From Actinomycetes bacterium (GTDB lineage Bacteria; Actinomycetota; Actinomycetes; Propionibacteriales; Propionibacteriaceae), in assembly GCA_021803025.1 (NCBI GenBank), contig JAJZQV010000008.1, positions 1 through 54,636 on the forward strand: DNA of 54,636 bases, given 5' to 3'. The notes below the pieces were generated by a model that was not told the DNA's origin, did no database searches, and was given only the letters and a program-made list of their open reading frames with translations. Made by a program: the position numbers and the translations under genes. This document shows, piece by piece, positions 22,556 to 51,344 of this stretch. Position 1 is the first letter of the stretch. The number at the start of each line of letters is the position of its first letter.

Positions 22556-22575
22556 ACATGCAAACGTTTGCATGT
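22556..22575. promoter_or_regulatory. Perfect 20-bp palindromic operator of the amino-sugar operon
   Basis: ACATGCAAACGTTTGCATGT is perfectly self-complementary with a central CG and the AAACGTTT core typical of LacI/CcpA-family operators. It ends 38 bp before the symporter start codon. The LacI-type protein encoded as the last gene of this operon (29279) is the obvious candidate to bind it, giving autoregulation. Confidence 0.8.
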
Positions 22576-22613
22576 CAGTGTGGCGCGCACAAACATCAAG
22601 CGTAGGAGTTCCC

Positions 22614-35240: not shown

Positions 35241-36124
35241 TGGCTACGGCATCACGGCCACGGGACACCCCTCTCGCCGTGCTCGTGCTGCCGTCGCTGC
35301 TGATGTTCGTCACCTTCGCTGTCGTGCCGCTGTTCGGTGTTGTGGTCTTGAGCTTCACCAAGTGGGACGGCATCGGGGCGATCTTGCCGAACGGTCTGGG
35401 GAGCTGGCAGCAGGTGCTCGCCGATCCCCAGACCTGGCGGTCGCTGTGGCTGACACTCCTGACGATGGTCATCACGTGGGCGGTGCAGACACCGCTGAGC
35501 ATCCTGCTGGGGACGTTCATCGCCGGCCACCAGCGCTATCGCGCAGTGCTCGCGGTCCTCTACTTCCTTCCGCTACTGCTGAGCTCCGCGGCACTGGCGA
35601 TCGCCTTCAAGGCGCTGTTCGACCCCAACTTCGGTCTCGGGGCGGGCCTGCACATCCCGTTGCTGAGCCAGGACTGGTTGGGCGTGCAACTGGCGTTCCC
35701 GGTGGTCCTGGCCGTCATCGCCTGGCAGTTCATCCCGTTCCACACGCTGCTCTACCAGGGAGGCGTGCGACAGATCCCCGTGCAGCTGTACGAGGCGGCG
35801 CAGATCGACGGGGCCGGCAGGTTCCAGCAGTTCCTCCGCATCACGCTGCCCCAGCTGAAGTACACGATCATCACGAGCTCGACGCTCATGCTGGTCGGCT
35901 CGCTGACGTACTTCGACCTGGTCTTCGTGATGACCGAGGGCGGACCTGGCAACGCCACCCGCATCCTCGCGCTCGACATGTACATCCGCGGCTTCAAGGC
36001 CAACCAGATGGGCGCCGCGAGCGTGATCGCGGTCTTCCTCGTGGTACTGGGTCTCGGCATGGCCCTCGGAGTGCAGCGGCTCGGTGGCCGCGACAAGAAC
36101 GCTAGCCAGCTGGAGGGGTTGTGA
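35240..36124 (+). CDS. Carbohydrate ABC transporter permease (MalF/UgpA-like)
   Basis: 294 residues with six membrane segments. The coupling motif is LYEAAQIDGAGRFQQFLRIT, and the C-terminal half has the typical FVMTEGGPGNATRIL. The start is the ATG at 35240 overlapping the binding protein stop (TGATG). It pairs with the next gene to form the channel. Confidence 0.93.
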   Translation: MATASRPRDTPLAVLVLPSLLMFVTFAVVPLFGVVVLSFTKWDGIGAILPNGLGSWQQVLADPQTWRSLWLTLLTMVITWAVQTPLSILLGTFIAGHQRYRAVLAVLYFLPLLLSSAALAIAFKALFDPNFGLGAGLHIPLLSQDWLGVQLAFPVVLAVIAWQFIPFHTLLYQGGVRQIPVQLYEAAQIDGAGRFQQFLRITLPQLKYTIITSSTLMLVGSLTYFDLVFVMTEGGPGNATRILALDMYIRGFKANQMGAASVIAVFLVVLGLGMALGVQRLGGRDKNASQLEGL

Positions 36125-37005
36125 CGACCGACACCATGCGGGCATCTACAAAGAAGACCGTGGACGTCAGAGACACCGGCAGCCGTGGCGTCGGGAAGCC
36201 GAACTACCTCGCCGGGTTCTTCGGCTGGTTCTGGCTCGCCGTAGTGATCATCCCGATCTACTACGTCGTCGTCACCTCCCTGAAGAACCAGGGCGACTAC
36301 TTCACCGCCAACCCGCTGGCGCTGCCCATCCCGCCGACGTTCCACCCCTATCAAGAAGTCATCGCGAACAACATCGGCACGTACTTCCTGAACAGCGTCA
36401 TCGTGGCGGTGGGTGCGGTCATCCCGATCGTGATCTTCGCCTTCATGGCTGCCTACGCACTCGTGCGGGGCCAGGGCCGGTTCCTGAGATTCTGCAACGG
36501 CCTGTTCCTCATGGGCCTCGCCATCCCGGTCCAGGCCACGATCGTGCCGATCTACCTCATGATCACCAAGATGGGCCTGTACGACACACTGCCGGCCATC
36601 ATCCTGCCCGCCGTCGCGTTCGGCCAGCCGCTGTCGATCCTGATCGTCTCGAACTTCGTCCGCGACATCCCGAAAGAGCTGTTCGAGTCGATGCGGCTCG
36701 ACGGGCTCACGGACTGGCGGATCATGTGGCGCCTGGCGTTCCCGCTGACCAGCCCGGCGCTGGTCACGGTGGCGATCTACCAGGGACTCAACGTCTGGAA
36801 CGGGTTCCTGTTCCCCCTGATCCTCACCCAGTCGCCAGACAAGCGCACGATGCCGCTCGGGCTGTGGGCGTTCCAGGGCGAGTACACGGTCAATATCCCT
36901 GCCATCCTCGCGGCAGTGATCGTGTCCACCGTGCCGATCCTGGTCCTCTACGTGATCGGACGACGCCAGCTGCTCAGCGGCCTCACCGCGGGCATAGGGA
37001 AGTAG
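36121..37005 (+). CDS. Carbohydrate ABC transporter permease (MalG/UgpE-like)
   Basis: 294 residues from the GTG at 36121, overlapping the upstream stop by 4 bp. Six membrane segments, coupling motif LFESMRLDGLTDWRIMWRLA, and the usual WNGFLFPLILTQSPDKRTMPLGL near the C-terminus. No ATPase gene follows; such importers often share a common MsiK-type ATPase encoded elsewhere. Confidence 0.93.
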   Translation: MTTDTMRASTKKTVDVRDTGSRGVGKPNYLAGFFGWFWLAVVIIPIYYVVVTSLKNQGDYFTANPLALPIPPTFHPYQEVIANNIGTYFLNSVIVAVGAVIPIVIFAFMAAYALVRGQGRFLRFCNGLFLMGLAIPVQATIVPIYLMITKMGLYDTLPAIILPAVAFGQPLSILIVSNFVRDIPKELFESMRLDGLTDWRIMWRLAFPLTSPALVTVAIYQGLNVWNGFLFPLILTQSPDKRTMPLGLWAFQGEYTVNIPAILAAVIVSTVPILVLYVIGRRQLLSGLTAGIGK

Positions 37006-37111
37006 AACACCGACACCGACGCCTCGACGAGCCCGCACCCGACCCCCTTCTGCGACCCTCCTCTTCTGCACACCCCTCAGCCTCTGCACACCATCAACCC
37101 GAAAGAGCCCG

Positions 37112-39091
37112 ATGACCATCTTCCATGTCGCCACGACCGGCGACGACGCCGCCGCCGGCACCGAGTCCGCCCCGTTCCGCACGGTCAACCACGCCGCGCA
37201 GTTCGCCTTGCCAGGCGACACCGTCCTCGTGCACGAAGGTCTGTACCGCGAGTGGGTCAAGCCCGCGAATGGCGGCCTCAGCGACACCAGACGGATCACG
37301 TACGCGGCGGCGCCCGGTGAGCACGTCAAGATCACCGGCGCCGAGCAGGTGACCGGCTGGACGCACGAGTCCGGTCCGGTGTGGACGGTGACGGTGCCGA
37401 ACGCGATGTTCGGCGACCACAACCCGTTCTCACTGACGATCGAGGGTGACTGGGTCGTACGGGAGACCGAGGACGAGCCGCGCAAGCACCTGGGCGACGT
37501 GTACCTCAACGGGCGCAGCTTCTACGAGGCGCTGTCGCGCGACGAGCTCACGGCGCCGGCGCGGACCGAGGTTCGGGACCACTGGACCGGCCGGATGGTG
37601 CGGGTGCCGGACGTGGTTCAGACCACGCATCGCTGGTACGCGGAGGTCGGGGCGGATACCACGACGATCTGGGCCGCGTTCGGCCAGGCCGACCCGAATG
37701 CCGAGCTGGTCGAGATCAACGTGCGCCGCTCGGTGTTCTACCCAGCGGTGGTGGGCCTGAACTACATCACCGTCCGTGGTTTCGAGCTGGCGCAGGCCGC
37801 GTGCCCGTGGACCCCGCCGACTGCGGACCAGCCGGGCCTCGTCGGCCCGAACTGGGCCAAGGGCTGGATCATCGAGGACAACGACATCCATGACGCGAAG
37901 TGCTCGGCGATCTCCATCGGCAAGGAGGCCTCGACCGGCAACAACAACTTCACCCGCCGTCATGACAAGCCGGGCTACCAGTACCAGCTCGAATCTGTCT
38001 TCAACGCGCTCGAGATCGGGTGGAGCAAGGAGCTCATCGGCTCGCACGTGATCCGCAACAACCACATCCACGACTGCGGCCAGAACGGCGTCGTCGGCCA
38101 CCTCGGCTGCATCTTCTCGCGGATCCACGACAACCACATCCACGCGATCGCGACCAAACGGGAGTTCTTCGGCCACGAGATCGCCGGGATCAAGCTGCAC
38201 GCCGCGATCGACGTCGAGATCGCTCACAACCACATCCACGACTGCTCGCTGGGGATCTGGCTGGACTGGCAGACCCAGGGCACGCGCGTGACCCGGAACG
38301 TGCTGCATGACAACTGCCGCGACCTGTTCGTCGAGGTCAGCCACGGCCCGTACGTGGTCGACCACAATGTCTTCGCCTCGAACGCGTCCATCGAGACCGT
38401 CTGCGAAGGCGGCGCCTACGTCGGGAACCTCGTCGCCGGAACCGTCCGGGTCGAGGACGTGATGAACCGCGCCACCCCGTACCACCGTGCCCACTCGACG
38501 AAGGTCGCCGGCTACGGCGTCATCTACTCCGGCGACGACCGGTGGATCGGCAACATCTTCTGCGGTACCGGTGGCGATCCCACCGACTTCTCTGCCGCCT
38601 ACGGCCGGGCGCTTCCGGACATGACCCGGACCGGCTACGGCACGTTGGCCTACGACGGCTATCCCGCCTCGTACGACGAGTACCTCGCAACCATCGAGGC
38701 CGCCCTCCCGGGCGACCTGAACATCTTCCTGCCGGTCAAGAACCCGGTGATGATCAGGAGCAACGTCTACCTCGACGGCGCCCGGCCCTTCGACAGGGAG
38801 ACAGGCGCGCTCGTCTCCGAGACGGCCTCACACGTCACGGTGGCGACCGATGGCGACCGGGTCACCGTCGAGCTGACCCTCCCCGACGACTTCGCCTCGC
38901 ACACCGTAGCGGTCCCGACAACTGCGGACCTCGGTCACGTGCGCTTCCCCGACCTGGAGTTCGAGGCACCGGACGGCACCGGGATCCAGCTCGGCACGGA
39001 CCTCCTGGGTTGCGTCGCGGACGGACTCACGGCCGCCGGCCCGGTTCACTCCCTCGTGGCGGGGCGCAACTCCGTCGTCGCCTGGGGGTGA
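37112..39091 (+). CDS. Cytoplasmic right-handed beta-helix protein, probable glycan-active enzyme (GH141-like)
   Basis: 659 residues with no signal peptide. The N-terminus reads DDAAAGTESAPFRTVNHAAQ and ITYAAAPGEHVKITGAEQVT, a pattern seen in right-handed parallel beta-helix carbohydrate enzymes. Repeated coils with IEDNDIHDAKCSAISIG, IRNNHIHDCGQNGVVGHLG, IHDNHIHAI and IAHNHIHDCSLGIWLDWQTQ cover residues about 245-400. A later FVEVSHGPYVVDHNVFASN resembles the active-site face of GH141 proteins. It is the last gene of a carbohydrate-import operon, so it probably cleaves an imported oligosaccharide. The linkage is unknown and the family call tentative. Confidence 0.65.
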   Translation: MTIFHVATTGDDAAAGTESAPFRTVNHAAQFALPGDTVLVHEGLYREWVKPANGGLSDTRRITYAAAPGEHVKITGAEQVTGWTHESGPVWTVTVPNAMFGDHNPFSLTIEGDWVVRETEDEPRKHLGDVYLNGRSFYEALSRDELTAPARTEVRDHWTGRMVRVPDVVQTTHRWYAEVGADTTTIWAAFGQADPNAELVEINVRRSVFYPAVVGLNYITVRGFELAQAACPWTPPTADQPGLVGPNWAKGWIIEDNDIHDAKCSAISIGKEASTGNNNFTRRHDKPGYQYQLESVFNALEIGWSKELIGSHVIRNNHIHDCGQNGVVGHLGCIFSRIHDNHIHAIATKREFFGHEIAGIKLHAAIDVEIAHNHIHDCSLGIWLDWQTQGTRVTRNVLHDNCRDLFVEVSHGPYVVDHNVFASNASIETVCEGGAYVGNLVAGTVRVEDVMNRATPYHRAHSTKVAGYGVIYSGDDRWIGNIFCGTGGDPTDFSAAYGRALPDMTRTGYGTLAYDGYPASYDEYLATIEAALPGDLNIFLPVKNPVMIRSNVYLDGARPFDRETGALVSETASHVTVATDGDRVTVELTLPDDFASHTVAVPTTADLGHVRFPDLEFEAPDGTGIQLGTDLLGCVADGLTAAGPVHSLVAGRNSVVAWG

Positions 39092-39226: not shown

Positions 39227-40459
39227 TCACACGGTGGCCGTCTTCTTCATGATGTCTCGTGCGGGCTTCCCGCTGCGGATCAGGTCACCCATGATGTCCA
39301 TCGCTGGCCAGACGTGGGTGAAGAAGCTGTAGTAGCCGGCGCACAGGTAGTTGAGCCCTGGCTCACCGTCCGCCGTGGTCGCAAAGCGGTCCTTCGGGCA
39401 GCCTCCGTTGCACGCCCAGCGGACCGGGCACTCCTGGCACTGGGTGGGCAGGGTGGTCCGCTTGGCCCTCCCGAACGCGCGTTGGGCGGGCTGAGTCAGG
39501 AGCTCTGTGAACGAAGCGGTAGCGATGTTCCCGAGCCTGAAGTCCGGCTCGACGTAGTGGTCGCACGAGTAGACGTCGCCGTTGTGCTCCATGGCGATAG
39601 CACTGCCGCACTCGGGGGCGTGGACGCACAGGCTGTACTGGCCGAACAAGGCGCCGAGAGTGACGTCGAAGTGCTGCACGAACACCTCGCCCACGTCGCG
39701 GGTGACCCACTCGTCGAAGATCGCGGTCAGGAACATCCCCCAGGCCTCGGGATCGACCGTACGGGAGGTGACCCCCTCCCCGGCCTGCCGGTACAGGACG
39801 TGGTCGCCCTGCTCGTCACGGAAACCTCGTTCGGCCTCGTCCTCGTGACCGGCCTCGACTCTCTCCACGATCGGGATGAACTGGAGGAACTGGGCCCCCA
39901 GCTCGTCACGGAAGTGGCGGTACACCTCCAGAGGGCGGTCCGCGTTGGCCGCGTTCACCGTGCACAGGATGTTGGTCTCCACCTGGTGGCGCCGCAGCAC
40001 GTCCCAGCCGCGGCGTACCTGGTCGTAGGTCCCGCGACCGGCCTTGTTGACCCGGTAGGCGTCGTGCAGCTCGGCGGGTCCGTCCATGCTGAGCCCGACC
40101 AGGAAGTCGTTCGCCCCCAGGAACTCGCCCCACTCGTCGTCCAGCAACGTCCCATTGGTCTGGAGCGCGTGCTGCACCTGCTGCCGAGGCCGCCGGTACT
40201 GCTCGGCCAGTCGTACGGCCTCCTTGAAGAACGCGAGCCCTCGCATCGTCGGCTCGCCGCCCTGCCAGCCGATCGTCACCGCGCCGTCGGGCTGTGCCTC
40301 CAGGTAGCTCGCGACGAAGCGGTCGAGCGTCTCGGCGCTCATCCGCTGCGAGTCGTGCCCCCAGAGGACCTCCTTGGACAGGAAGAAGCAGTACGAGCAG
40401 TCCAGGTTGCAGGCCGCACCCGTCGGCTTCGTGATCAACGAGAACGGAAGGGTCCTCAT
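39227..40459 (-). CDS. Anaerobic sulfatase-maturating enzyme (radical SAM, SPASM domain)
   Basis: 410 residues. The radical SAM cluster motif is CNLDCSYC (C17, C21, C24), followed by GWQGGEPTMRGLAFF and QTNGTLLDDEW. The C-terminal SPASM region has the expected Cys in SLCVHAPECGSAIAMEHNGD, VYSCDHYVEP, CQECPVRWACNGGCPKDR and YLCAGYY, enough for two auxiliary [4Fe-4S] clusters. It should oxidise the active-site Cys of sulfatases to formylglycine. The start overlaps the stop of the sulfatase gene by 4 bp. All three sulfatases in the window have Cys at that position and could be its clients. Fe-S chemistry suggests use in low-oxygen conditions. Confidence 0.92.
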   Translation of the reverse strand: MRTLPFSLITKPTGAACNLDCSYCFFLSKEVLWGHDSQRMSAETLDRFVASYLEAQPDGAVTIGWQGGEPTMRGLAFFKEAVRLAEQYRRPRQQVQHALQTNGTLLDDEWGEFLGANDFLVGLSMDGPAELHDAYRVNKAGRGTYDQVRRGWDVLRRHQVETNILCTVNAANADRPLEVYRHFRDELGAQFLQFIPIVERVEAGHEDEAERGFRDEQGDHVLYRQAGEGVTSRTVDPEAWGMFLTAIFDEWVTRDVGEVFVQHFDVTLGALFGQYSLCVHAPECGSAIAMEHNGDVYSCDHYVEPDFRLGNIATASFTELLTQPAQRAFGRAKRTTLPTQCQECPVRWACNGGCPKDRFATTADGEPGLNYLCAGYYSFFTHVWPAMDIMGDLIRSGKPARDIMKKTATV

Positions 40460-41916
40460 GAGAACTCCTGCTCCCCTTCACCCCATGCGGGATGAGGGGT
40501 GTCCGGACCCCGGTACGGCTCGTCGCCGTAGACGTCCTGCAGCCGTGCGAGCTCGGACTCGAGGAACCCGCGCACCTCTGCATAGGCCGGGTCGTCGATC
40601 ACGCTGGTCAGCTCAAGGGGGTCGGTCTCCAGGTCGAACATCTCCCACTCGTCCGGCGTGACCACGTCGGAGGCTCCCGGAACGCCCAAGCCCGCCCCGT
40701 AGTAGCGGATGAGCTTGTAGCGCTCGGTGCGTACCCCGTAGTGAGCCGGGACGTGGTGGAACGGGTCGTTGTGCTCCCAGTACCGGTAGTACATCGACCG
40801 CGGCCAGTCCTCCAGCTCCTCTCCTCGCAGCAAGGGCCGAAACGAGCGTCCCTGCTGCGCGGGGAGAGCGGAGGCGTCGATCCCGCACATGTCGAGGAAG
40901 GTGGCGGCGAAGTCGACGTTGGTGATCATGGCCTCACACCGGGAGCCCGCCGGGATCTCCGCCGGCCAGCGGAGCACCATGGGCATCTGCAGCGACTGCT
41001 CGAACATGAGCCGCTTGTCGAACCAGCCGTGGTCGCCCAGGAAGAAGCCCTGGTCGGAGCAGTAGACGACGACCGTGTTCTCCGACAGTCCCGTCGCGTC
41101 GAGGTGGTCGAGCACGCGCCCGACGTTGTCGTCGACGGACTGGATGCACTGCAGGTAGTCGCGCATGTAGCGCTGGTACTTCCATCGGGCGCGGGCCTCC
41201 GTCCGCTCGGGCCCTTCCAGCTCGGGAGGCGTCGGCTCCTTCACGTCCTGCTCGTTGAGGTCGTCCGCGATGCTCATCGTCACGTGGCGTACTGCCTCGC
41301 TCAGCCCGGCGTGGTCGTCGAGGAACGTCTCGGGCTCAGGGATCGTGCCCACCGCGTACAGGTCCTTGTGCTTGTCGTCCGGGATCCATGGCCGGTGCGG
41401 CGCCTTGTGGTGGATCATCAGTGCGAACGGCCGGCCGGGGTCCCTGCGGTCGAGCCAGTCGATGGCCAGGTCCGTGACGATGTCCGTCGCGTACCCCGGG
41501 ATCACCCGCTTGCCGTTCGGCCCGATCATCACGGGGTCGATGTAGGCGCCCTGTCCGGGGAACACGAGCCACTCGTCGAAGCTGCGGGGCCTGGCGAAGT
41601 CGGCTTCGCCCAGGTGCCACTTGCCGAAGACGGCCGTCTGGTAGCCGGCGTCGTGCATCGCGTCGACGTAGGTGGGAACCCGGTAGTCCATCTCGGCGTA
41701 GATGCCCGGCACACCGTTGATGTGGCTGTACGTGCCGGTGAGGATGGTCGCCCGCGACGGTGAGCAGATGGAGTTCGTGCAGTACGTCGCCGAGAGCAGG
41801 ACCCCTTCGCGAGCGAGACGGTCGATGTGGGGCGTCTGGTTGACCGTGCTGCCGTACGCCGAGATGGCATGCGGGGCATGGTCGTCGGACATGATGAAGA
41901 TGAGGTTGGTCCCCAC
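40456..41916 (-). CDS. Type I sulfatase, cytoplasmic (sulfatase 1)
   Basis: 486 residues from the GTG at 41916, with AAGGAG upstream. Formylglycine motif CSPSR with Cys at 51 (NSICSPSRATILTG), metal-binding DD at 11-12, FGKWHLGE, and the second metal site in VYCSDQGFFLGDHGWFDKR. No signal peptide, so it hydrolyses sulfate esters inside the cell. It is co-transcribed and overlapping with its maturase and is divergent from the ROK regulator gene and ABC importer. The organic part of the substrate is unknown; extra aromatic or sugar specificity cannot be read from these motifs. Confidence 0.92.
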   Translation of the reverse strand: MGTNLIFIMSDDHAPHAISAYGSTVNQTPHIDRLAREGVLLSATYCTNSICSPSRATILTGTYSHINGVPGIYAEMDYRVPTYVDAMHDAGYQTAVFGKWHLGEADFARPRSFDEWLVFPGQGAYIDPVMIGPNGKRVIPGYATDIVTDLAIDWLDRRDPGRPFALMIHHKAPHRPWIPDDKHKDLYAVGTIPEPETFLDDHAGLSEAVRHVTMSIADDLNEQDVKEPTPPELEGPERTEARARWKYQRYMRDYLQCIQSVDDNVGRVLDHLDATGLSENTVVVYCSDQGFFLGDHGWFDKRLMFEQSLQMPMVLRWPAEIPAGSRCEAMITNVDFAATFLDMCGIDASALPAQQGRSFRPLLRGEELEDWPRSMYYRYWEHNDPFHHVPAHYGVRTERYKLIRYYGAGLGVPGASDVVTPDEWEMFDLETDPLELTSVIDDPAYAEVRGFLESELARLQDVYGDEPYRGPDTPHPAWGEGEQEFS

Positions 41917-42043
41917 AGGGAGCTCCTTCGTAACGTACTGCTGTCGGTGACTCGGGCGGCGAACGCTGCGACGCGCATCAATGTACGTCCTCCTGCTTGC
42001 CCATCCGTCAGTGATTCTGCCCCCGCCCCCGGAGACGGCGGAA

Positions 42044-42097
42044 GAATAATTCTGTCGCGTTCTTGACGGAATAATTCGGCCTTCATAGGTTCCCGCC
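42044..42097 (+). promoter_or_regulatory. Leaderless promoter with twin GAATAATTC operators for the ROK-ABC-sulfatase operon
   Basis: TTGACG (42063-42068), a 17-bp spacer and TAGGTT (42086-42091) place the transcription start at or next to the ATG at 42098, so the mRNA is probably leaderless. Two copies of the palindrome-like GAATAATTC (42044-42052 and 42069-42077) lie 25 bp apart, the second inside the promoter spacer. They are A/T islands in GC-rich DNA and resemble the AT-rich half-sites of ROK regulators. Both may control the divergent sulfatase gene as well. Confidence 0.65.
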
Positions 42098-43264
42098 ATG
42101 AGATCGGCGATGGGGCCGGGAGTCCGCCGCGAGCACGAGGAACGGGTGCTCGCCGCGCTACGGGACAACGGCGCGCGAAGCCGGGCGGAGCTGGGCGAGC
42201 TCGTGGGCCTGTCGCGTTCCAGCCTGTCGGAGGTGACCACCTCGCTTCTCGATCGTGGTGTCATCGTCGTGCTCGACAAGGGCACCGCCCGGCGTGGCGC
42301 TGGGCGCCCCGCGGAGCGTCTGGCGCTCGACCCGAGCTCGGGGCAGTACATCGGGCTCGACTTCCAGCACGCTCGGGTCGAGGTGGTTGTCGCCGATGCC
42401 ACCCACGAGGTTCTCGGGGCCGGCCGGGCGACGTACGAGCTCGGCTCGCCCTGGCACGAGCGCATGCAGGTGGCGTTCGACCTCATCGACGGCGTGGCAG
42501 AGAAGGCGAACGCGCACTTCGGCGCCCTCGCCTGGATCTACGCCGGGGTCCCCGGCCCGTACGTCCCACCCAGCGCTCGCGTCAAGCTGCCCGCCTTCTG
42601 GGAACGCTCGCGGATCAACGGCTATGGGGTGCGCGAGGCGCTCTCCGGCAGGTACGGAGCGCCGACGAGCATCGACAACAACACGCGCCTTGCGGCACTC
42701 GCGGAGGCGAAGGAGAGCGGCGTCCAGGACCTCGTGTACATCCGGCTCGGCCAGGGCGTCGGCGGCGGCCTGGTTCAGGCGGGCCGGTTGACGCGGGGGA
42801 CCCACTCGCTCGCCGGTGAGCTGGGACATGCGCCCGTGCCCGGGAAGCAGGGTCTGTGTCGGTGCGGCAAGCGCGGCTGCCTGGAGACCGTCGCGGCGCT
42901 CCCCGAGGTGGTCAAGGCCTGCCAGGAGGCCGGGGTGCCTGCGGCAGGCTCGGCCACACCCCTCGACGAAGGGGCCCTGGCCGCTGTGGACGAGGTCACC
43001 ACTGAGGTCGCGGCGGCGATGTGCATGGTCCTGCGACCGGTCGTCATGGCGCTCGACCCCGAAGAGGTGGTCGTCGCGGGCCCCGTTCTCGATCTCCTCC
43101 CGGGCCTGCTCCTCCGTGTCCAGGAGGCACTGATGGCGGAGAGATTCACCGGACTGGACGTCCCACGGGTGCGCGGGCCGCTGGTCACTGCGCACGAGGG
43201 GGCCCTCGGCGCCCTTCAGGCCGGCTACGACGCGCAGGCGCTCGAATCGAAAGGAACGACATGA
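42098..43264 (+). CDS. ROK-family transcriptional regulator
   Basis: 388 residues. An N-terminal winged helix-turn-helix ([20 protein letters not shown]) precedes the ROK fold. The family zinc motif is complete in [12 protein letters not shown] after GELGHAP. The sequence [14 protein letters not shown] stands where ROK kinases have NDAN with the catalytic Asp, so this is a regulator and probably not a kinase. It is the first gene of an operon with an SsuABC-type importer and a sulfatase. It should sense a sugar, or a desulfated product, and control both directions of the divergent locus. Confidence 0.9.
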
Positions 43265-44076
43265 GTCTTGTGGGCGTCGGGGCAGACGCTCCGGCGACAC
43301 CCGATGCACGACAGAAGGCGGGGACGAAGCGACGCCCGCCGAGCATCACCCTTCTGAACACGGCCTCGATCGTGTTCGGGATCGCGCTCTGGTGGGGACT
43401 GTCGTTGGCGGGCTTCAAGCTGCCCACCCCGCCCGAGGTCGTGAAGTCGGCGGTGAGGCTGCTGTCGGACGGCACGTTGGAGGGTGACATCCTCGCGAGC
43501 CTGCGCCGCGTTCTCACGGGGTTCGTCCTGGGCACGGCGCTGGCGATCCCGGTCGGCTTCCTGATGGGCTGGTACACCATTGCCAGGGCGCTGATCGAGC
43601 CCTGGGTGCAGTTCTTCCGGACGATCCCCCCGCTGGCGATCATCCCGCTCGCGATCGTGCTGCTGGGCATCGAGGAGACGCCGAAGATCTTCGTCATCTT
43701 CCTCGCCGCATTCCTCGCCTGCGTGATCTCGACCTTTCAGGGCGTCGTCAACGTGGACAAGACGCTGATCAACGCTGCCCGTGTCCTCGGGGCCAAGGAC
43801 GGCCGGATCTTCCTCAAGGTCGTCATCCCCGCGTCGACCCCGTTCATCCTGGTCGGGATGCGCGTCGGTCTGGGCTCAGCGTGGGCGACGTTGGTCGCCG
43901 CCGAGCTGATCGCGGCCCAGGAGGGGCTCGGCTACCGGATGCAGGCCGCGCAGCTCTACTACGACCTCCCGACGATCTTCGTTGGGCTCATCACGATCGG
44001 CGTGCTCGGGCTGCTCATGGACCGCCTCCTGCTCTTCGCCGAGCGCCGACTCACGGGATGGCAGGAACGCCGATGA
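43261..44076 (+). CDS. ABC transporter permease (SsuC/TauC-like)
   Basis: 271 residues, six membrane segments. It overlaps the regulator gene by 4 bp. The coupling motif is [20 protein letters not shown], and [20 protein letters not shown] is typical of nitrate/sulfonate/taurine-type permeases. Partner of the ATPase at 44073 and the binding protein at 44875. Confidence 0.92.
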
Positions 44077-44837
44077 CCAGCTCGCCCAAGATTCAGGTGA
44101 TGGACGTCAGCAAGACGTTCAAGCTGGGAGGCGAGGACTTCGTCGCGCTCGACCATGTCTCGATCGACATCGCCGACAGGGAGTTCGTCACCGTCGTGGG
44201 ACCCTCAGGCTGCGGCAAGACGACCCTGATGAACATTCTCGCGGGGCTCGAGGAGCCCAGCTCGGGCAGGGCCCTGGTTGACGGCAAGCCGGTCGAGGGC
44301 CCCGGACCCGAGAGAGGCGTCATCTTCCAGCAGTACGCGCTCTTCCCCTGGCTGAGCGTGCGCAAGAACGTCGAGTTCGGCTTGGAGACGGCCGGCGTGG
44401 GCCGCAGGGAACGCCATGAGGTCGCCGAGAAGTACATCGCGATGGTCGGCCTGGAGCAGTTCGCGGACGCGCTGCCCAAGATGCTGTCCGGCGGCATGCG
44501 GCAGCGGTGCGCGATCGCGAGGGCGTACGCAGTGAACCCCTCGATCCTGCTCATGGACGAGCCGTTCGGGGCTCTCGATGCACTGACGCGCGTACGACTT
44601 CAGGAGCAGCTGCTCGAGACCTGGAGCCAGGACCGGCGCACTGTCGTGTTCATCACCCACGACGTCGACGAGGCCGTCTTCCTCGCCAACCGCGTGGTCG
44701 TCATGGCCGCCCGGCCAGGGCGCATCTTCACCACGATCGACGTCCCGGCTGTCACCCGGGACGAGGCATTCAGGATGTCCGACCAGTACGCCCACCTGCG
44801 CAACCAGGTCTGGTCAGCAGTGCACCACCAGTCCTGA
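44073..44837 (+). CDS. ABC transporter ATP-binding protein (SsuB/TauB-like)
   Basis: 254 residues, overlapping the permease by 4 bp. Walker [11 protein letters not shown]-loop [12 protein letters not shown], signature LSGGMRQR, Walker [12 protein letters not shown], and switch His in [11 protein letters not shown]. The PWLSV after the Q-loop and absence of a long C-terminal domain mark it as the sulfonate/nitrate/taurine class. Confidence 0.93.
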
Positions 44838-44874
44838 CGAACACCACACAACCCACACCAACAAAGGAAAGCTC

Positions 44875-45891
44875 ATGTCACTGTCACGTCGCGGCCTCCT
44901 GGCCGCCTCATTGGGCGCCGCCACTGCAGGGCTGGTTGGCTGCTCGTCCTCGATGCCCACGGCGACGACCAAGGGGGGCTCGTCAGCCTCGCTGCCGGCC
45001 GCTTCCATCACGTTCGGCTACATCGGCGACTTCAACGGGACGTCCCTGCTCGCCATCGCCGACGCCAAGGGCATGTGGGCCGAGCAGAACATCAAGGCCA
45101 CGACCAAGGTGTTCACCAACGGGCCCCTCCAGATCACCGCTCTGGGCACTGGCGACCTGCATTTCGGCTACATCGGCCCGGGAGCCTTCTGGCTGCCCGC
45201 GTCAGGACAGGCGAAGATCGTCGCGATGAACACCCTGGGCACGGCGGACCGCGTCATCGCTCAACCGGGCATCACGTCCATGGAGCAGCTCAAGGGCAAG
45301 AAGGTCGGCGTCCCCGAGGGCACCTCGGGCGACATGATCCTCACGCTGGCGCTCCAGAAAGCCGGGATGACGAAGGCCGACATCCAGGTCACGCCAATGG
45401 ACGCCTCGACGGTGGTCGCGGCCTTCTCGTCCAAGGCCATCGACGGCGCCGGCATCTGGTACCCGAACATCGCGACCATCAAGAAGTCCGTCCCCAACCT
45501 CGTCGAACTCGCCAAGAACCAGGACTTCGTGAGCAAGGTCGCCTTCCCCAACGCGTTCGTGGCCGGGAACAAGGTCGTCACCGACCAGAAGGACGTCACG
45601 ATCCGCGTCCTGAAGGTGCTGCGGAAGGCCATGCAGTTCCGCAAGGACAACCTCACCGAGACCATCAGCCTCACGGCCAAGATGCTCAAGCTGGACGAGG
45701 CAGCGGTGAGGGCGGACTCGGAGAACTGCGAGATCTTCTCCCCGGCTGAGTGGGACGCCAAGACGATGGACGGTACGACGACGAGCTGGCTCAAGGGCAT
45801 GGGTGACTACTTCCTGTCCGCGAAGAAGATCACGTCCAACCCGGCACCCAGCGAGTGGTATCTCGGCGACCTCTTCACGAGCGCCAAGTGA
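44875..45891 (+). CDS. ABC transporter substrate-binding lipoprotein (NMT1/SsuA-like)
   Basis: 338 residues, with AAAGGAAAG upstream. Signal with SLSRRGLLAASLG and lipobox GLVGC (Cys 23). The mature protein has the SsuA/NMT1 pattern: ITFGYIGDFNGTSLLAIADA, MWAEQNIKATTKVFTNGP, LKGKKVGVPEGTSGDMIL and IDGAGIWYPNIATI. Binding proteins of this class recognise sulfonates, sulfate esters, nitrate or thiamine precursors. Being linked to sulfatases, it likely binds an organic sulfate ester. The stop overlaps the start of the next sulfatase gene. Confidence 0.9.
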   Translation: MSLSRRGLLAASLGAATAGLVGCSSSMPTATTKGGSSASLPAASITFGYIGDFNGTSLLAIADAKGMWAEQNIKATTKVFTNGPLQITALGTGDLHFGYIGPGAFWLPASGQAKIVAMNTLGTADRVIAQPGITSMEQLKGKKVGVPEGTSGDMILTLALQKAGMTKADIQVTPMDASTVVAAFSSKAIDGAGIWYPNIATIKKSVPNLVELAKNQDFVSKVAFPNAFVAGNKVVTDQKDVTIRVLKVLRKAMQFRKDNLTETISLTAKMLKLDEAAVRADSENCEIFSPAEWDAKTMDGTTTSWLKGMGDYFLSAKKITSNPAPSEWYLGDLFTSAK

Positions 45892-47396
45892 CGAAGCGAC
45901 GCAGGAACATCCTGTTCCTCATGACCGACCAGCACCGTCGGGACACGCTGGGCTGCTACGGCGGTCCGGGGGCGCATACGCCGGTCCTGGACGGTCTGGC
46001 CGCGACCGGGGTGCGGTTCGACCAGTGGTACACACCCACGGCGATCTGCACACCGGCGCGGGCGTCGCTCCTGACCGGAAAGCTGCCGTTCCGCCACCGG
46101 CTGCTGGCGAACGCGGAACGCAACGTCGGCTACATCGAGGACCTGCCGCGGGACGCCTTCTCCTTCTCCCGGACGCTGCGCGATGCCGGGTACAACGTCG
46201 GGCTGATGGGGAAGTGGCACGCCGGCGAGCACCTCACCGCCCGCGACTTCGGGTTCGAGGGACCGCACTTCGTCGGATGGCACAACCAGATCGACCACCC
46301 CGAGTACCTGGCGTACCTGCAGCAGGGCGGCCACCCTCCGTACGAGATCCACGACCGGATCCGCGGGACGCTGCCGAACGGCGGTCCGGGCAACCTTCTC
46401 GCGGCACGTCTCAAGCAGCCCACGGAGGCCACGTTCGAGCACTTCCTGGCCACACGGACCATCGAGATGCTCCGGGAGTACGCGGTCGCCGTGGAGCGGG
46501 GCACTCCGTTCTACCTCGCCCTGCACTTCTCCGGGCCACACCTGCCGTACATCCTTCCGGACGAGTGGTTCGACCTCGTCGACCCGGCGACGGTGGAGCT
46601 GCCACGCTCGACGCTGGAGACCTTCGAGGGCAAGCCGCCGGTGCAGAAGAACTACTCCGCCCACTGGACGTACGACACGCTGACGCCGGAGGAGTCCCGC
46701 ACGCTGATCGCGGTGTACCGGGGTTATGTGGCGCTTCTTGACTTCGAGCTCGGACGAGTGCTGGCGGCGCTCGACGAGCTGGGCCTCACCGACGACACTG
46801 CTGTCTTCTTCACCTCCGATCATGGCGAGTTCACCGGCTCGCACCGGCTGCACGACAAGGGGCCGGCCATGTACGACGACATCTACCGCACCTGCGGTCT
46901 GCTGCGCGTCCCCGGTGAGGCGTCCGGCGAGGTGCGCGAGCAGTTCGTGAGCCTCGTCGACTGCACCGCGACGATCCTCGACCTGGCCGGGCTCGACCCG
47001 TCGGCCGCGGTCGACTCACGTAGCCTGCTGCCGCTCATGTCACCCGGCAACGACCAGGCGCCCTGGGACCCGGCGATCGTGGGCGAGTTCCACGGCCACC
47101 ATTTCCCGTACCCTCAGCGGATGCTCCGGACCCGTACGCACAAGCTCGTCGTCAACCCCGAGTCGGTGAACGAGCTGTACGACCTGGTGCGCGACCCGGA
47201 CGAGATGGTCAACGTCTACAGGCTGCCGGAGTACGAGGAGGTCAGGAACGGCCTGCTCCGTGACCTGTACGAGCGGCTGCGGGCCCGCGGCGACAACTTC
47301 TACCACTGGATGACGTCGGCGTACCCGGTCGGCGACCTCTCGTACGACCCGTCCATGGGGGGCCTGGACGACGATTCGTACCCTGTGCGTGCTTGA
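45888..47396 (+). CDS. Type I sulfatase, cytoplasmic (sulfatase 2)
   Basis: 502 residues from the GTG at 45888, which overlaps the binding protein stop (GTGA). The formylglycine motif is CTPAR with Cys at 54 (TAICTPARASLLTG); DQH at 14-16 starts the metal site, with GKWHAGEH and FTSDHGEFTGSH further on. No signal peptide. It is the last gene of the ROK-ABC operon and the functional match of an importer for sulfate esters. It can be activated by the maturase encoded at 39227 on the other arm of the locus. Confidence 0.92.
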   Translation: MTKRRRNILFLMTDQHRRDTLGCYGGPGAHTPVLDGLAATGVRFDQWYTPTAICTPARASLLTGKLPFRHRLLANAERNVGYIEDLPRDAFSFSRTLRDAGYNVGLMGKWHAGEHLTARDFGFEGPHFVGWHNQIDHPEYLAYLQQGGHPPYEIHDRIRGTLPNGGPGNLLAARLKQPTEATFEHFLATRTIEMLREYAVAVERGTPFYLALHFSGPHLPYILPDEWFDLVDPATVELPRSTLETFEGKPPVQKNYSAHWTYDTLTPEESRTLIAVYRGYVALLDFELGRVLAALDELGLTDDTAVFFTSDHGEFTGSHRLHDKGPAMYDDIYRTCGLLRVPGEASGEVREQFVSLVDCTATILDLAGLDPSAAVDSRSLLPLMSPGNDQAPWDPAIVGEFHGHHFPYPQRMLRTRTHKLVVNPESVNELYDLVRDPDEMVNVYRLPEYEEVRNGLLRDLYERLRARGDNFYHWMTSAYPVGDLSYDPSMGGLDDDSYPVRA

Positions 47397-47519: not shown

Positions 47520-48926
47520 TCAACGAACGAGCTTCCTGCCACTGGTCAGCTGATCGACGATCCAGTCGTTCGCGACCAGGCTGTCGCCGTCGCGCTGGAG
47601 CTGCTGGAGCAGCTCCAGCCGCAGTTCCTGCACGATGTCATGGAGCGATACGTCCGCGATTCGGTTGGTGATCTCGTTCGGATCGTTGCGCATGTCGTAG
47701 AGCTCATCCGTGTCGGTGAGGTTCCATACGTATTTCCAGGCGTTCGTGCGAATCATCCGCTGGGAGAAGAGTCCGAACTGCTGACCATTGTAGGTGGATA
47801 CGACATGTCGCCGCCGTGCAATGTCTGGGGACTCCTCAAACTGGAGTTTGTCCCGTGACGTCAAGAGCTCCACCCCGTGGCTGATAGGGGGCGGTGGGAA
47901 GCCGATGATCGACGCGATGGTAGGAGGAAGATCGAGTGTGTTGTAGGCGAAGCTCTCGCTGCGAGAACCGGCTGGGATCCGTCCTGGCCAACGAAGGATC
48001 AACGGTACCCGCACTACGTCGTCGTACATGATGTAATGCTTGTCCATCATGCCGTGGGCTCCGCACATATCACCATGGTCGGAGGTGTAGACCACAAGAG
48101 TGTCCTCTGCGCCACCGACCTCGTCCAGGGTCTTCAGAACCGTTCCGATCGCAGCGTCCATCTGGCAGATCACCGCATAGTACCGTGCGACCACGGGGGC
48201 CCAATCCGACCATGTGTAGTTCTCGACGCCCCAGTTGACTCTCTGCTGTCTCTGGATGTAGGGCTTTCCCTCCAGCGCATCGGAGAAGTCGAGCCACTCT
48301 GGGATTCCGTCTTCCGGGAACAACGCTGCGAACTCCGCCGTGGGAAGGCACGGCAGGTGCGGCTCGAGGAAATCCAGTCGCGCATGCCATGGTCTGCCGG
48401 ACGTCGTCATCTCTTGGATGAACTCGGATGTTTGTCTCGCCAGCCAGTGCGTTCGGCTGTCCTCGGTCGGCACCGGGTCGACGGCCCCGAACCAGTCGGT
48501 CGACATCGGATGCTCGGGATAGCGCTCGAGCCTCCACGCCTCGTACTGCTCTAGCTGAATCCATCGATCGTATCCAAACTCGGTCGGACCGTGGTCGGGG
48601 TTGACATGCCACTTGCCGACGTACTGTGTCGCGTAGTCGGCCCGCTGGAGCTCGCGTGCCCACGAATACTCGTCCGGGCGCAGGGCAGGGATCCGGGAGC
48701 CCAGGTCATAGTTCCACAGGCCTCCGTGGGTTTCCGGCCGCCGCCCGGTGAGTAGCGACTGACGGGCCGGGGTACACAGCGGGATCGGTGTGAAGGCGTG
48801 GCCGAACCACATCCCGCCCGCGGCGAGCGCGTCCAGGTGTGGTGTCGAGACGGGGTAGGCGCCACTCGCGCCGACGCAGTCAAGTCGGTGCTGGTCGGAG
48901 ACGATCAGGAGGATGTTGGGTGTCAT
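47520..48926 (-). CDS. Type I sulfatase, cytoplasmic (sulfatase 3)
   Basis: 468 residues. Formylglycine motif CTPAR with Cys at 51 (IPLCTPARQSLLTG), metal site DQH at 11-13, VGKWHVNPDHG, and YTSDHGDMCGAHGMMDKH. No signal peptide. Codon choice is less GC-biased than for sulfatases 1 and 2, so it is not a recent local duplicate of them. The start overlaps the MFS transporter stop by 4 bp, so transporter and sulfatase are made together. It should desulfate a compound brought in by the MFS protein, and relies on a maturase encoded elsewhere (39227 is a candidate). Confidence 0.92.
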   Translation of the reverse strand: MTPNILLIVSDQHRLDCVGASGAYPVSTPHLDALAAGGMWFGHAFTPIPLCTPARQSLLTGRRPETHGGLWNYDLGSRIPALRPDEYSWARELQRADYATQYVGKWHVNPDHGPTEFGYDRWIQLEQYEAWRLERYPEHPMSTDWFGAVDPVPTEDSRTHWLARQTSEFIQEMTTSGRPWHARLDFLEPHLPCLPTAEFAALFPEDGIPEWLDFSDALEGKPYIQRQQRVNWGVENYTWSDWAPVVARYYAVICQMDAAIGTVLKTLDEVGGAEDTLVVYTSDHGDMCGAHGMMDKHYIMYDDVVRVPLILRWPGRIPAGSRSESFAYNTLDLPPTIASIIGFPPPPISHGVELLTSRDKLQFEESPDIARRRHVVSTYNGQQFGLFSQRMIRTNAWKYVWNLTDTDELYDMRNDPNEITNRIADVSLHDIVQELRLELLQQLQRDGDSLVANDWIVDQLTSGRKLVR

Positions 48927-50191
48927 GCTCGCTCCGCTGCGATCTCCTCAAGGCTCTTTCCCGCTGTGTTCGGCATGAACACGACTCCGATGAGCCCGCT
49001 GATGACCAGGAAGCCCGTGAGCAGCCACCCAAGGGTTGCGACTCCGACCGATGCGATCACCGGCACGGCCAGGCTCCAGAAGAACAGCACGACCCGAACG
49101 CTCCCGTACACCAGTCCCTGGCCCGTGGCTCGCACGCTTGTCGGGAACAGCTCGTTCAGCCAGACCCTGATCATGGGGTACTGAGCCATGCCCTGACCGA
49201 CCCCGAAGAGAACCACGTTGGCGATGGCCACCGGCGTGGTCAGGGGCAACACCGCGAAGAGGAGGAACGCGATGGCTTGCAGCGCGGCGCCCACCGCGAA
49301 CATCAGCCGCCTGTGGCTCGTGTCCCCGAGCGGCATGAAGATCAAAGCGACCGACAACAGCCCGCAGAGGAAGCCCAGTCCTTGGATGGCAACCGACCCG
49401 GCTTGGCTCTGGGCGCCGAGCGTTCGTAGAAGGAATGGCAAGAAGACTCCGTTGGTCCCCGCTGCCAAGTTCCAGAAGAGGAACACGCCTCCCGTGAAAG
49501 CGATCGCCTTGCCGCTGGCCCTGTGGAAGAGCTCCCGGATGGCTCGTATGGACAGGGCGTTACCCCCATCGGATCCAGCCTTTTCCTTCCAGCGAAGCGA
49601 CTCACCCATTCCACGTCGCAGGGCCCAGGTGAGCATGGCGAGGACGAACAGGTGCCCGAAGATGATTCTCGGTCCCCACGACCCGAGGGGCGCAACGGCG
49701 ACGGCTATTGCGAGGACGCCAACAGGGCCGAGGTTCCACAGAATATTGGTGACACCCATCATCCGGCTCCGCGACCGTTTCGGTGAGCTTTCGCTCAGGA
49801 GCGCCCAGGAGGTGGGGATGTCGATCCCGACTGCGACGCCGACCACGAGCGATCCGATGATGAGCATGGGCACGCTGCCGGCAAAGACGAACAGCAGTGT
49901 TCCCACTGCGTAGACGAGAAGGTCGAACTGGTAGATGGTCTTACGCCCGATAGCATCACCCAGCCTGCCTCCCACAATGGCGCCGATACCAGCGGCCAAG
50001 GCGTTCGGACCAAGGGCGGTGATCAGTCCTATGGTTGATGAGGCTAGGCCGAACTGCGTCTTCCATACTGCCAACGAGGCACCGATGGCGACGATGGAAC
50101 CGGCATCGATATAGTCGGCCATCGATGTGAGGAAGGCGAGTTTCCAGGGATTCCGTCCCTGCTCAACGATTACTTCTGCCTGGCTGCTCAT
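48923..50191 (-). CDS. MFS transporter (sugar-porter-like)
   Basis: 422 residues from the ATG at 50191, with AAAGG eight bases upstream. About 12 membrane segments; loop 2-3 reads GGRLGDAIGRKTIYQFDLLV, the MFS signature, and the matching loop in the second half is PLGDTSHRRLMF. The PTSWALLSESSPKRSRSRM stretch resembles sugar/organic-acid porters. Coupled to sulfatase 3 by a 4-bp overlap, it likely imports a sulfated sugar or aromatic. Its promoter carries the double operator at 50220-50247. Confidence 0.88.
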   Translation of the reverse strand: MSSQAEVIVEQGRNPWKLAFLTSMADYIDAGSIVAIGASLAVWKTQFGLASSTIGLITALGPNALAAGIGAIVGGRLGDAIGRKTIYQFDLLVYAVGTLLFVFAGSVPMLIIGSLVVGVAVGIDIPTSWALLSESSPKRSRSRMMGVTNILWNLGPVGVLAIAVAVAPLGSWGPRIIFGHLFVLAMLTWALRRGMGESLRWKEKAGSDGGNALSIRAIRELFHRASGKAIAFTGGVFLFWNLAAGTNGVFLPFLLRTLGAQSQAGSVAIQGLGFLCGLLSVALIFMPLGDTSHRRLMFAVGAALQAIAFLLFAVLPLTTPVAIANVVLFGVGQGMAQYPMIRVWLNELFPTSVRATGQGLVYGSVRVVLFFWSLAVPVIASVGVATLGWLLTGFLVISGLIGVVFMPNTAGKSLEEIAAERA

Positions 50192-50219
50192 ATGACACAC
50201 CTTTGTGAGAGTCGTCGCC

Positions 50220-50279
50220 GGTGGATCGATCCATGCATCGATCCACCGATACTATAGAGTTCGTCTGAGTGGGCGTCAA
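50220..50279 (-). promoter_or_regulatory. Strong promoter with extended LacI-type operator for the MFS-sulfatase operon
   Basis: On the minus strand TTGACG (50279-50274), 17 bp, TATAGT (50256-50251) form a near-consensus promoter. Directly at the start site lies a 28-bp inverted repeat (50220-50247) with perfect arms GGTGGATCGAT and ATCGATCCACC. It can also be read as two abutting 12-mers, TGGATCGATCCA (50222-50233) and TGCATCGATCCA (50234-50245). The core matches the operators at 384 and 2908 with one change. The divergent LacI gene (50301) is the probable source of the repressor. Confidence 0.8.
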
Positions 50280-50300
50280 CGGGCGAGTATCCTCATCTGC

Positions 50301-51344
50301 GTGACTGTGGGCAGTAGCAACAGGAATCGGCGTCCCGTGAAGATGCTCGACATCGCTGCGGCCGCGGGCGTGTCGCGATCCACAGTGTCGAACGTGATGC
50401 GAGATCTCCCGAGTGTGGCTCCCGAGGTTCGAGCACGGGTCGTCCGCGAGGCCGAGAGGCTGGGGTACCTGTACAACCGTGGGGCCGCCACCTTGCGGAT
50501 GCAGCAGTCGCACCTCATTGGCCTGGTGATTCCGGACCTGGCCAACCCGTTCATCGCCGAGGCCCTGCGCGGCGCCGAAGATGCTCTCGTGCCTCATGGA
50601 TACCTCGTCGTGTCAGCGCGGACGAACGATGAGGTCGACCGCCAAACCCAGATCCTCAGGAACCTGGCTGAGCACCGGGTCGACGGCGTGATGCTTCTCC
50701 CCGCTGTGAAAACCGACGGCGCGGCGATCTCGAAGGCGCTCAACGCCCTCCCCACCGTCTTCCTGAACCGCGACGTCCCGGGCTGCGGCGTGGAGTATGT
50801 CGGGCCGGACGAGGCGTCCATCGGCCGACTCGGCGCGGCCCACCTTGTCGGAGTCCATCAGTGCGAGACGGTCGCCTACTTCGGAGGCCCCGAGCTGGCG
50901 TCGCCGCGGGCTATTCGCAGGGAGCAGTTCATCGACGTCGCCACGGCCGCGGGGGCCACGGTTGTCGAGGAGTGGTCGGTGCCGTGCGAGCCGACCCCGA
51001 ATGCCGCGTACGTCGCCGCGCAACGCCTGATGAAGGCCTCGACCCTTCCCACGGGCATCCACTGTCACAGTGACGAGATCGCTTACGGCGTTCTCCGCGC
51101 GCTCCGCGAGAACTTCGTTCCGATCTCCAGGTGCCGCATCCTCGGTACAGACAACGTGCCGAATTCAGCCTTCGCGAGTCCCAGCCTCACTACCATCTCC
51201 GTCGATGCGTTCGCCATCGGCCGAGTCGCGGCCGAACGAATGCTGCGGCAGTTGGGAGAGGCTCCGGACAGTCGCATGATGGTGCCTCCGGCTCGCCTAG
51301 TCGAACGCGAGTCCTGTGGATGCCGGGTGTGCGAACCCGGCTAG
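50301..51344 (+). CDS. LacI-family repressor of the MFS-sulfatase operon
   Basis: 347 residues if the GTG at 50301 is used; a GTG at 50307 is also possible, and no ribosome site is obvious. The helix-turn-helix is VKMLDIAAAAGVSRSTVSNV with hinge YNRGAATLRMQQSHLIG, then the effector domain (PDLANPFIAEALRGAEDAL, VDGVMLLPAV, AYFGGPELASPRAIRREQF). The C-terminus is Cys-rich (ESCGCRVC). It is divergent from the operon at 50191, with the operator between. The same core sequence at the left end of the window suggests it may also control those genes. Confidence 0.9.
   Translation: MTVGSSNRNRRPVKMLDIAAAAGVSRSTVSNVMRDLPSVAPEVRARVVREAERLGYLYNRGAATLRMQQSHLIGLVIPDLANPFIAEALRGAEDALVPHGYLVVSARTNDEVDRQTQILRNLAEHRVDGVMLLPAVKTDGAAISKALNALPTVFLNRDVPGCGVEYVGPDEASIGRLGAAHLVGVHQCETVAYFGGPELASPRAIRREQFIDVATAAGATVVEEWSVPCEPTPNAAYVAAQRLMKASTLPTGIHCHSDEIAYGVLRALRENFVPISRCRILGTDNVPNSAFASPSLTTISVDAFAIGRVAAERMLRQLGEAPDSRMMVPPARLVERESCGCRVCEPG

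Follow-up and report, generated by a model that had tools for sequence, protein, structure and literature searches.

A ROK-linked gene cassette of a Propionibacteriaceae genome that may import small sulfated sugars through an SsuABC-type transporter and desulfate them in the cytoplasm

Introduction

Removal of sulfate from sulfated glycans has been studied best outside the cytoplasm. In the atsRBC-atsA system of Pseudomonas putida, an SsuABC-class importer of sulfate esters is linked to an intracellular sulfatase. Here we analyse a cassette that shares this linkage. It lies in a 54,636-nt stretch of DNA (contig JAJZQV010000008.1 of assembly GCA_021803025.1, Propionibacteriaceae; G+C content 66.7%), which as a whole is called the window below, and comprises genes for a ROK-family regulator, an SsuCBA importer, two sulfatases (sulfatase 1 and sulfatase 2) and an anaerobic sulfatase-maturating enzyme (anSME). 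The P. putida system differs from it in serving aryl sulfates, in being controlled by sulfur starvation and in its aerobic sulfatase maturation.

Of the systems described so far, the nearest is the ats2 cluster of Bifidobacterium breve UCC2003 (Bbr_0846-0853), whose NagC/XylR-type regulator we take to be of the ROK type. In the passages cited here the cluster contains this regulator, atsA2, atsB2 and a glucose/fructose transport protein, and lies near nagA1 and nagB2 (PMC5144078); ats clusters with a maturase, a transporter and a regulator are also mentioned elsewhere (PMC9239261). B. breve grows on N-acetylglucosamine-6-sulfate (GlcNAc-6-sulfate) and reportedly produces intracellular sulfatases (PMC7326374), and its growth on this compound is impaired or lost in the absence of both nagA genes (PMC6045583). 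As far as these passages go, a ROK-type regulator, an intracellular sulfatase, an anSME and a transporter are thus neighbours in ats2 as in the cassette. The suggestion of an earlier note on the window that the combination of ROK regulator, anaerobic maturase and intracellular sulfatase may be undescribed is thus not supported. The two systems differ in that ats2 has a transporter of the glucose/fructose type where the cassette has SsuCBA, and has nagA and nagB alongside one sulfatase where the cassette has two sulfatases. The likeness is one of gene content.

Rhodococcus qingshengii IGTS8 has a ROK regulator gene beside the genes of choline sulfatase AtsA1 and a TauD-family dioxygenase (peg5938-5940; PMC8557817). 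This locus has in common with the cassette the ROK gene adjoining a sulfatase gene. It differs in its sulfur-limitation setting and its TauD-type dioxygenase, and the passages cited name no importer or maturase with it. A search of the open-licence literature for a ROK-sulfatase-sulfonate importer cassette and for GlcNAc-6-sulfate uptake found no description of such a cassette. Relative to the described systems, the new elements are the class of the importer and the group to which it belongs.

Results

Gene order around the importer is kept in relatives

All genes listed in the earlier note (two sulfatases, anSME, ROK regulator and SsuABC-type importer, arranged in two tight arms) were recovered at their positions (Table 1). 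Somewhat more likely than not, they form a cassette under ROK control that imports small sulfated sugars and then desulfates them: the importer group, the kinship of sulfatase 1, the nag-linked sister of the importer and the recurrence of a dyad upstream of the regulator together favour this interpretation.

Species genomes were scanned for SsuA with six peptide patterns, a search that covers close relatives only. Twenty-four loci were obtained; L030 and L031 (29-30%, one Bacillota metagenome-assembled genome) were left out of all counts, and the other 22 are called the scan loci below. Locus counts rest on tblastn, the gene caller having picked wrong frames in places. The order ROK-SsuC-SsuB-SsuA on one strand is kept in 22/22 scan loci (the ROK match of L025 is in two pieces), and sulfatase 2 comes next in 21 of them (64-72% identity; in L008 the gene is truncated where the contig ends). 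In L016 neither sulfatase 2 nor a sulfatase-1-like gene was found. A sulfatase-1-like gene (49-52% identity) was present in eight of the 22. The scan loci belong to Micromonospora, Motilibacter, Kribbella, Streptomyces, Actinacidiphila, Pseudonocardia, Nonomuraea, Sphaerisporangium, Cellulomonas, Labedella, Nocardioides and Microbacterium, among others. The linkage of ROK, SsuABC and sulfatase genes, for which the earlier note had suggested a search, is therefore a conserved one.

Within the host's own family some SsuA match (E 0.001) was found in 93/197 genomes, and a close SsuA in the host genome and nine others (43-55% identity), all nine from one genus, g28; a sulfatase gene adjoins SsuA in all ten. 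In a sample of the order, a close SsuA (profile search, E 1e-50) occurred in 23/391 genomes, which include the host genome, the nine g28 genomes and the genomes of L010 and L024. The gene adjoining SsuA encoded a sulfatase in 23/23, of type 2 in 16 and of type 1 in seven. One genome of the order has a 4-kb locus identical to that of Kribbella steppae and another has one identical to that of Nocardioides sp. Iso805N, which places the host in the Propionibacteriales. In a phylum sample 3/396 genomes, the host included, reached E 1e-30. Both 23/391 and 3/396 are lower bounds, at most five candidates having been scored per genome. The cassette is thus conserved but rare, its order being kept in relatives while few sampled genomes have it. 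Chance neighbourhood was ruled out by the kept gene order and by the adjoining sulfatase in 23/23.

The g28 loci come in two forms. L067 and L068 have the ROK form, whereas six loci (L069-L074) have a PadR gene, no ROK match, and sulfatase 1 directly after SsuA; L075 is cut by the contig end. Sulfatase 1 of the window is 66-71% identical to its counterparts in L069-L074, a range that also holds with L075 included, and 49-54% identical to those of nine ROK-form loci. From these identities the window looks like a ROK-SsuCBA-sulfatase 2 form joined with the paired sulfatase 1 and anSME genes of a PadR form. At position 11190 of L067 (genome G183) we observed a sulfatase-1-like gene without an open start in frame, as if frame-shifted.

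The importer and its sister group

SsuA exceeds the subfamily cut-off of the SsuA_fam model TIGR01728, in agreement with the sulfonate-class importer proposed in the earlier note. Scores for the narrower models stayed below their cut-offs (NF008588 SsuA, 44 of 299 bits; SsuB, 176 of 395; SsuC, 122 of 347). All three subunits belong to the same families as those of the Escherichia coli SsuABC and TauABC transporters; the cassette proteins differ in falling under the SsuC, SsuB, TauA, TauB and TauC equivalog cut-offs and in their linkage to sulfatases. SsuA carries the lipobox LVGC behind an RR motif. Its predicted structure (pLDDT, predicted local distance difference test, 90) was closest to TauA (6ssy) and SsuA (2x26).

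A maximum-likelihood tree was built from 45 SsuA proteins, among them those of the window, of 14 of the 22 scan loci and of L067-L074. These 23 cassette proteins lie on one side of a branch with support 100/100, and SsuA of L016, the locus in which no sulfatase was found after it, falls inside the group. For 20 more distant SsuA genes of the family, flanks of about 1.5 kb were searched with the three sulfatases of the window, and none gave a match. The nearest outside proteins are the pair L085/L086 from one other family, joined at 97/86, around which no match to the window sulfatases was found within 18 kb. In both sister genomes a nagB-like gene and nagA come after SsuC-SsuB-SsuA, and beside this operon are a divergent LacI gene, a ketose-bisphosphate aldolase and a phosphofructokinase-like gene. 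The nag models were run on L087, where NagA scored 255 bits with TIGR00221 (cut-off 226) and the NagB-like protein 89 of 237 bits; L088 was judged by eye. On these two genomes, gene content ties the closest sulfatase-free relatives of the importer to amino sugars. By eye, the SsuCBA-nag operon (L087, 5864-10919; L088, 6738-11909) has no adjoining amino-sugar kinase. Its transporter possibly imports an amino-sugar phosphate.

The cassette could instead serve sulfur scavenging: under a shortage of inorganic sulfate, sulfate esters would be imported as a source of sulfate, and their carbon part would be a by-product. Models for this explanation are the ats and ssu systems of Pseudomonas. SsuABC-class importers are known chiefly as suppliers of sulfur, and the resemblance of the SsuA model to TauA and SsuA agrees with scavenging. 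So do the six loci with the PadR form, which have no sugar-type regulator, and, in the passages cited, the cultures of IGTS8 grown with dibenzothiophene, in which the ROK regulator, choline sulfatase and TauD-family proteins were strongly raised, or exclusively found, compared with sulfate (PMC8557817). We nevertheless consider scavenging unlikely, if a serious contender: sulfatase 1 is nearest to carbohydrate sulfatases, the nearest sulfatase-free transporters are encoded in an amino-sugar catabolic operon, and the sulfatase genes of B. breve have a NagC-type regulator beside them in the text cited (PMC5144078).

Sulfatase 1 resembles S1_11 enzymes

In sulfatase 1 the metal motif on the first strand of the fold lies at residue 11, and in sulfatase 2 at residue 14, so near the N-terminus that no room is left for a signal peptide, as the earlier note had claimed. 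Judged from their N-termini, both enzymes appear to be cytoplasmic.

Sulfatase 1 (PF00884, 170 bits) has the S1 fold with the CxPxR motif in the form CSPSR, and the C, P and R are invariant in 17/17 aligned sequences (8 of the 22 scan loci were taken into this alignment). Most searches used positions 40456-41904, which lack the codons of the first four residues. The best PDB match was the N-acetylglucosamine-6-sulfatase 5g2v (E 3.5e-113). The top eight chains scored 320-382 bits, the ninth falling to 156 bits; by name they are N-acetylglucosamine-6-sulfatase, mucin-desulfating sulfatase, exo-L-galactose-6-sulfatase, arylsulfatase (two) and sulfatase, either plain or putative (three). In the FDKR segment the Asp and the Arg, and in AHYG one His, are invariant in 17/17 and align with 5g2v; they may be the triad residues of subfamily S1_11, for which the passages cited below give no residue numbers. 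Chains 5g2v and 7p24 are presumably BT4656 and BT3177, and we count the remaining top chains as S1_11 too. According to the passages cited, BT4656 and BT3177 belong to S1_11, the enzymes of this subfamily recognise 6S-GlcNAc by a His and Asp/Arg triad, and members from aquatic environments apply the same triad to L-galactose (PMC10154612). Judged by these matches, sulfatase 1 is apparently nearer to S1_11 members than to other S1 subfamilies. It shares the Asp/Arg and His positions with its closest solved relatives, the S1_11 sulfatases 5g2v, 7p24 and 7lha. It differs from the 5g2v and 7p24 chains in having Cys where these have Ser, and from BT4656, described as periplasmic (PMC10154612), in having no apparent signal peptide.

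Our best guess, made from sequence likeness, is that GlcNAc-6-sulfate is the substrate of the sulfatase 1 part. The preference of the earlier note for sulfated sugars over aryl sulfates gains support, and an aryl-sulfate system was rejected, in both cases on the grounds that sulfatase 1 is nearest to carbohydrate sulfatases. Sulfatase 2 is remote from solved structures, the nearest being the exo-2S-iota-carrageenan sulfatase 6pt4 (159 bits in a single-sequence and 210 in a profile search), and its predicted structure was weak (pLDDT 65).

These neighbours raise the question of another sugar: L-galactose-6-sulfate, or sulfated pentose or galactose oligomers, of plant or algal origin and freed by secreted enzymes of glycoside hydrolase family 43 (GH43) type. 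A GH43-like gene is present in 7/22 scan loci (L010, L011, L012, L013, L014, L015 and L017) and a second GH43 type in four, an L-galactose-6-sulfatase is among the structures closest to sulfatase 1, the aquatic S1_11 enzymes use the same triad for L-galactose in the source cited (PMC10154612), sulfatase 2 is nearest to a carrageenan sulfatase, and a GH120 xylosidase operon adjoins the cassette in the window. Such a substrate seems quite improbable to us, since the top match of sulfatase 1 is a GlcNAc-6-sulfatase, the likeness to the carrageenan sulfatase is remote, that of the GH43-like protein to solved arabinanases is weak, and the GH120 operon is convergent and separate.

The maturase varies around the importer

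The anSME gene product exceeds the TIGR03942 cut-off and has the CxxxCxxC motif as CNLDCSYC. It is the sole full-length anSME match in the host genome (3.37 Mb, 191 contigs, 98.5% complete), in which no match to the formylglycine-generating enzyme (FGE) was found and which has seven sulfatase matches. Of the genomes of the scan loci, 21 were searched (that of L008 was left out): FGE was present in 21/21, and there was no good anSME, with weak matches of at most 86 bits in 12 and none in nine. An FGE gene lies inside the locus in 15/22. All nine g28 genomes have an anSME (589-660 bits). An FGE match was obtained as well in six of the nine, with more than 250 bits in five, so that one maturase does not exclude the other. 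In G133 the genes of sulfatase 1 and anSME adjoin each other as in the window. While the importer stays constant, the maturase thus varies, FGE being present in the scan-locus genomes and anSME in those of g28; the anaerobic maturase, which belongs to the combination stressed in the earlier note, is not a defining component.

In the host genome a second anSME was matched in pieces only, at 1681-2235 of L078 (contig C143). The pieces adjoin a sulfatase gene, a PadR-like gene and a sugar ATP-binding cassette (ABC) transporter, the latter two recognised from similarity and by eye.

The regulator and a putative operator

The ROK protein scored 68 of 650 bits with the NagC model. Its predicted promoter consists of the -35 box TTGACG, a 17-nt spacer and TAGGTT. 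Upstream of ROK a dyad (at most 2 mismatches in 14, gaps of 8-12) was found in 22/25 loci, the set comprising the window, the 22 scan loci, L067 and L068; L025, L026 and L027 had no dyad within the allowed mismatches. The dyad starts 42-60 nt before the estimated ROK start in 20 of these 22 loci, and in all 22 at most 5/200 shuffles matched its score. A 28-nt form modelled on the window site occurs once in the genome at up to 3 mismatches, namely at this site. The -35 half of the dyad could be conserved as promoter alone. A promoter/terminator scan was of little use, its counts lying near those of shuffled sequence (1 against 0.9; 5 against 3.7, standard deviation 2.0). In bifidobacteria the ROK repressor NagR is described as binding palindromes and responding to GlcNAc and GlcNAc-6P (PMC9599254).

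Of the earlier note's statements on the regulator, its link to the same cluster stands, given the kept gene order and the dyad upstream of ROK; its sugar-sensing role is weakened, since the abundance of the IGTS8 ROK regulator rises, in the passages cited, under dibenzothiophene as sulfur source (PMC8557817), and a ROK protein need not mean sugar sensing.

Layout and neighbouring units

Both arms diverge from a region of 181 bp (41917-42097). Genes overlap by 4 nt at four junctions (sulfatase 1/anSME, ROK/SsuC, SsuC/SsuB and SsuA/sulfatase 2), and the gap between SsuB and SsuA is 37 nt.

Table 1. Positions of the cassette genes, the putative operator and the adjoining sulfatase gene in the window
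Feature	Position	Strand	Remarks
anSME (radical S-adenosylmethionine/SPASM)	39227..40459	-	TIGR03942 453 bits, cut-off 349
Sulfatase 1	40456..41916	-	Cys-type (CSPSR), S1_11-like; N-terminus points to cytoplasm; GTG start at 41916
Putative ROK operator TTCTGTC-N8-GACGGAA	42050..42071		Overlaps predicted -35 box (TTGACG at 42063) of ROK promoter
ROK-family transcriptional regulator	42098..43264	+	Helix-turn-helix (HTH) and ROK domain; PF00480 106 bits plus winged HTH
SsuC/TauC-type permease	43261..44076	+	PF00528; SaoP, TauC and SsuC models, all under equivalog cut-offs
SsuB/TauB-type ATPase	44073..44837	+	PF00005; best models TauB and SaoA, both under equivalog cut-offs
SsuA-family substrate-binding lipoprotein	44875..45891	+	TIGR01728 198 bits, cut-off 163.5
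Sulfatase 2	45888..47396	+	Cys-type (CTPAR); N-terminus points to cytoplasm; PF00884 156 bits
Sulfatase 3, adjoining unit	47520..48926	-	PF00884 141 bits; G+C at third codon positions (GC3) 0.78

To the right of the cassette, at 47520-51344, lies a unit that the earlier note does not mention: overlapping genes for sulfatase 3 and a major facilitator superfamily transporter, with a divergent LacI regulator. Its GC3 is 0.77-0.79, compared with 0.86-0.92 in the other genes measured (SsuB left out). In the 22 scan loci sulfatase 3 gave 28-29% matches in five and a 77-residue piece of 45% in one; on these scant matches it is probably not a cassette member. A similar trio (28/42/39% identity) is found on contig C19 of the genome (L077).

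On the other side, at 33915-39091, sugar ABC transporter genes are followed by a GH120 beta-xylosidase gene convergent with the anSME gene. The xylosidase (785 bits to 3vst) has no apparent signal peptide. This operon (33.9-39.1 kb) was rejected as part of the cassette, being convergent and without a match in the relatives' loci. Farther away, an amino-sugar-like cluster (22527-30238) encodes a sodium symporter, GlcNAc 2-epimerase-like and ceramidase-like proteins, a LacI regulator, and NagB-like (25384-26109) and NagA-like (26855-27997) proteins that are both under the model cut-offs.

Discussion

If the cassette imports small sulfated sugars and then desulfates them, it may work as follows. 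SsuA, as a cell-surface lipoprotein, would bind a sulfated mono- or disaccharide via its sulfate, and SsuC and SsuB would import it intact, as family, fold and linkage suggest. In the cytoplasm the anSME would turn the active-site Cys of both sulfatases into formylglycine, a reaction established for its family; we assign it to both because no FGE was found in the genome. Sulfatase 1 would take off a 6-O-sulfate, most likely from GlcNAc, while sulfatase 2 would act on a differently placed sulfate or on a different sugar, and the desulfated sugar would pass into ordinary catabolism. The ROK protein would act as a repressor at the dyad that covers the -35 box of its own promoter until released by the freed sugar or its phosphate, and the dyad, situated between the arms, may control both.

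Several observations weigh against this interpretation. No sulfatase-1-like gene was found in 14/22 scan loci (including L008, which ends inside sulfatase 2, and L016), so that GlcNAc-6-sulfate is not the whole story, and the top eight chains of sulfatase 1 include the L-galactose-6-sulfatase 7lha and the arylsulfatase-named 7snj and 7sno. Two NagA queries and one NagB query had no match in the relatives' flanks, and the two types of GH43 gene in the relatives' loci (7/22 and 4/22), of which the first encodes a protein remotely like solved arabinanases, hint at other sugars. The nagA-linked sister consists of two genomes from a single family. Its branch (97/86) is one of some long branches that meet, about which the tree program gave a warning. 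The dyad was chosen from the same, related sequences on which it was tested, and the shuffles overstate its case. The picture of two forms is blurred by L067, which is of the ROK form and carries a piece of sulfatase 1 with 67% likeness to that of the window. Finally, in the passages cited, the abundance of the IGTS8 ROK regulator under dibenzothiophene exceeded that under sulfate 18- to 33-fold (PMC8557817).

Substrates may vary among the relatives, because some have sulfatase 2 alone and GH43-type genes occur in some of the loci. We tentatively suggest a wider reading, which as a joint proposal remains somewhat doubtful: a distinct group of SsuABC importers, with scattered occurrence in Actinomycetota, would be dedicated to sulfated (amino) sugars instead of sulfonates and coupled to cytosolic carbohydrate sulfatases, its sulfatase-free sister would import amino-sugar-6-phosphates or amino sugars as substrates for nagA/nagB, and around the constant importer the regulator (ROK or PadR), the sulfatase (1, 2 or both) and the maturase (FGE or anSME) would be exchangeable modules. 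If this is true, actinobacteria that import intact sulfated sugars could be recognised in genome data by the importer group as a marker, and SsuABC-type transport would be extended from sulfonates to sugars.

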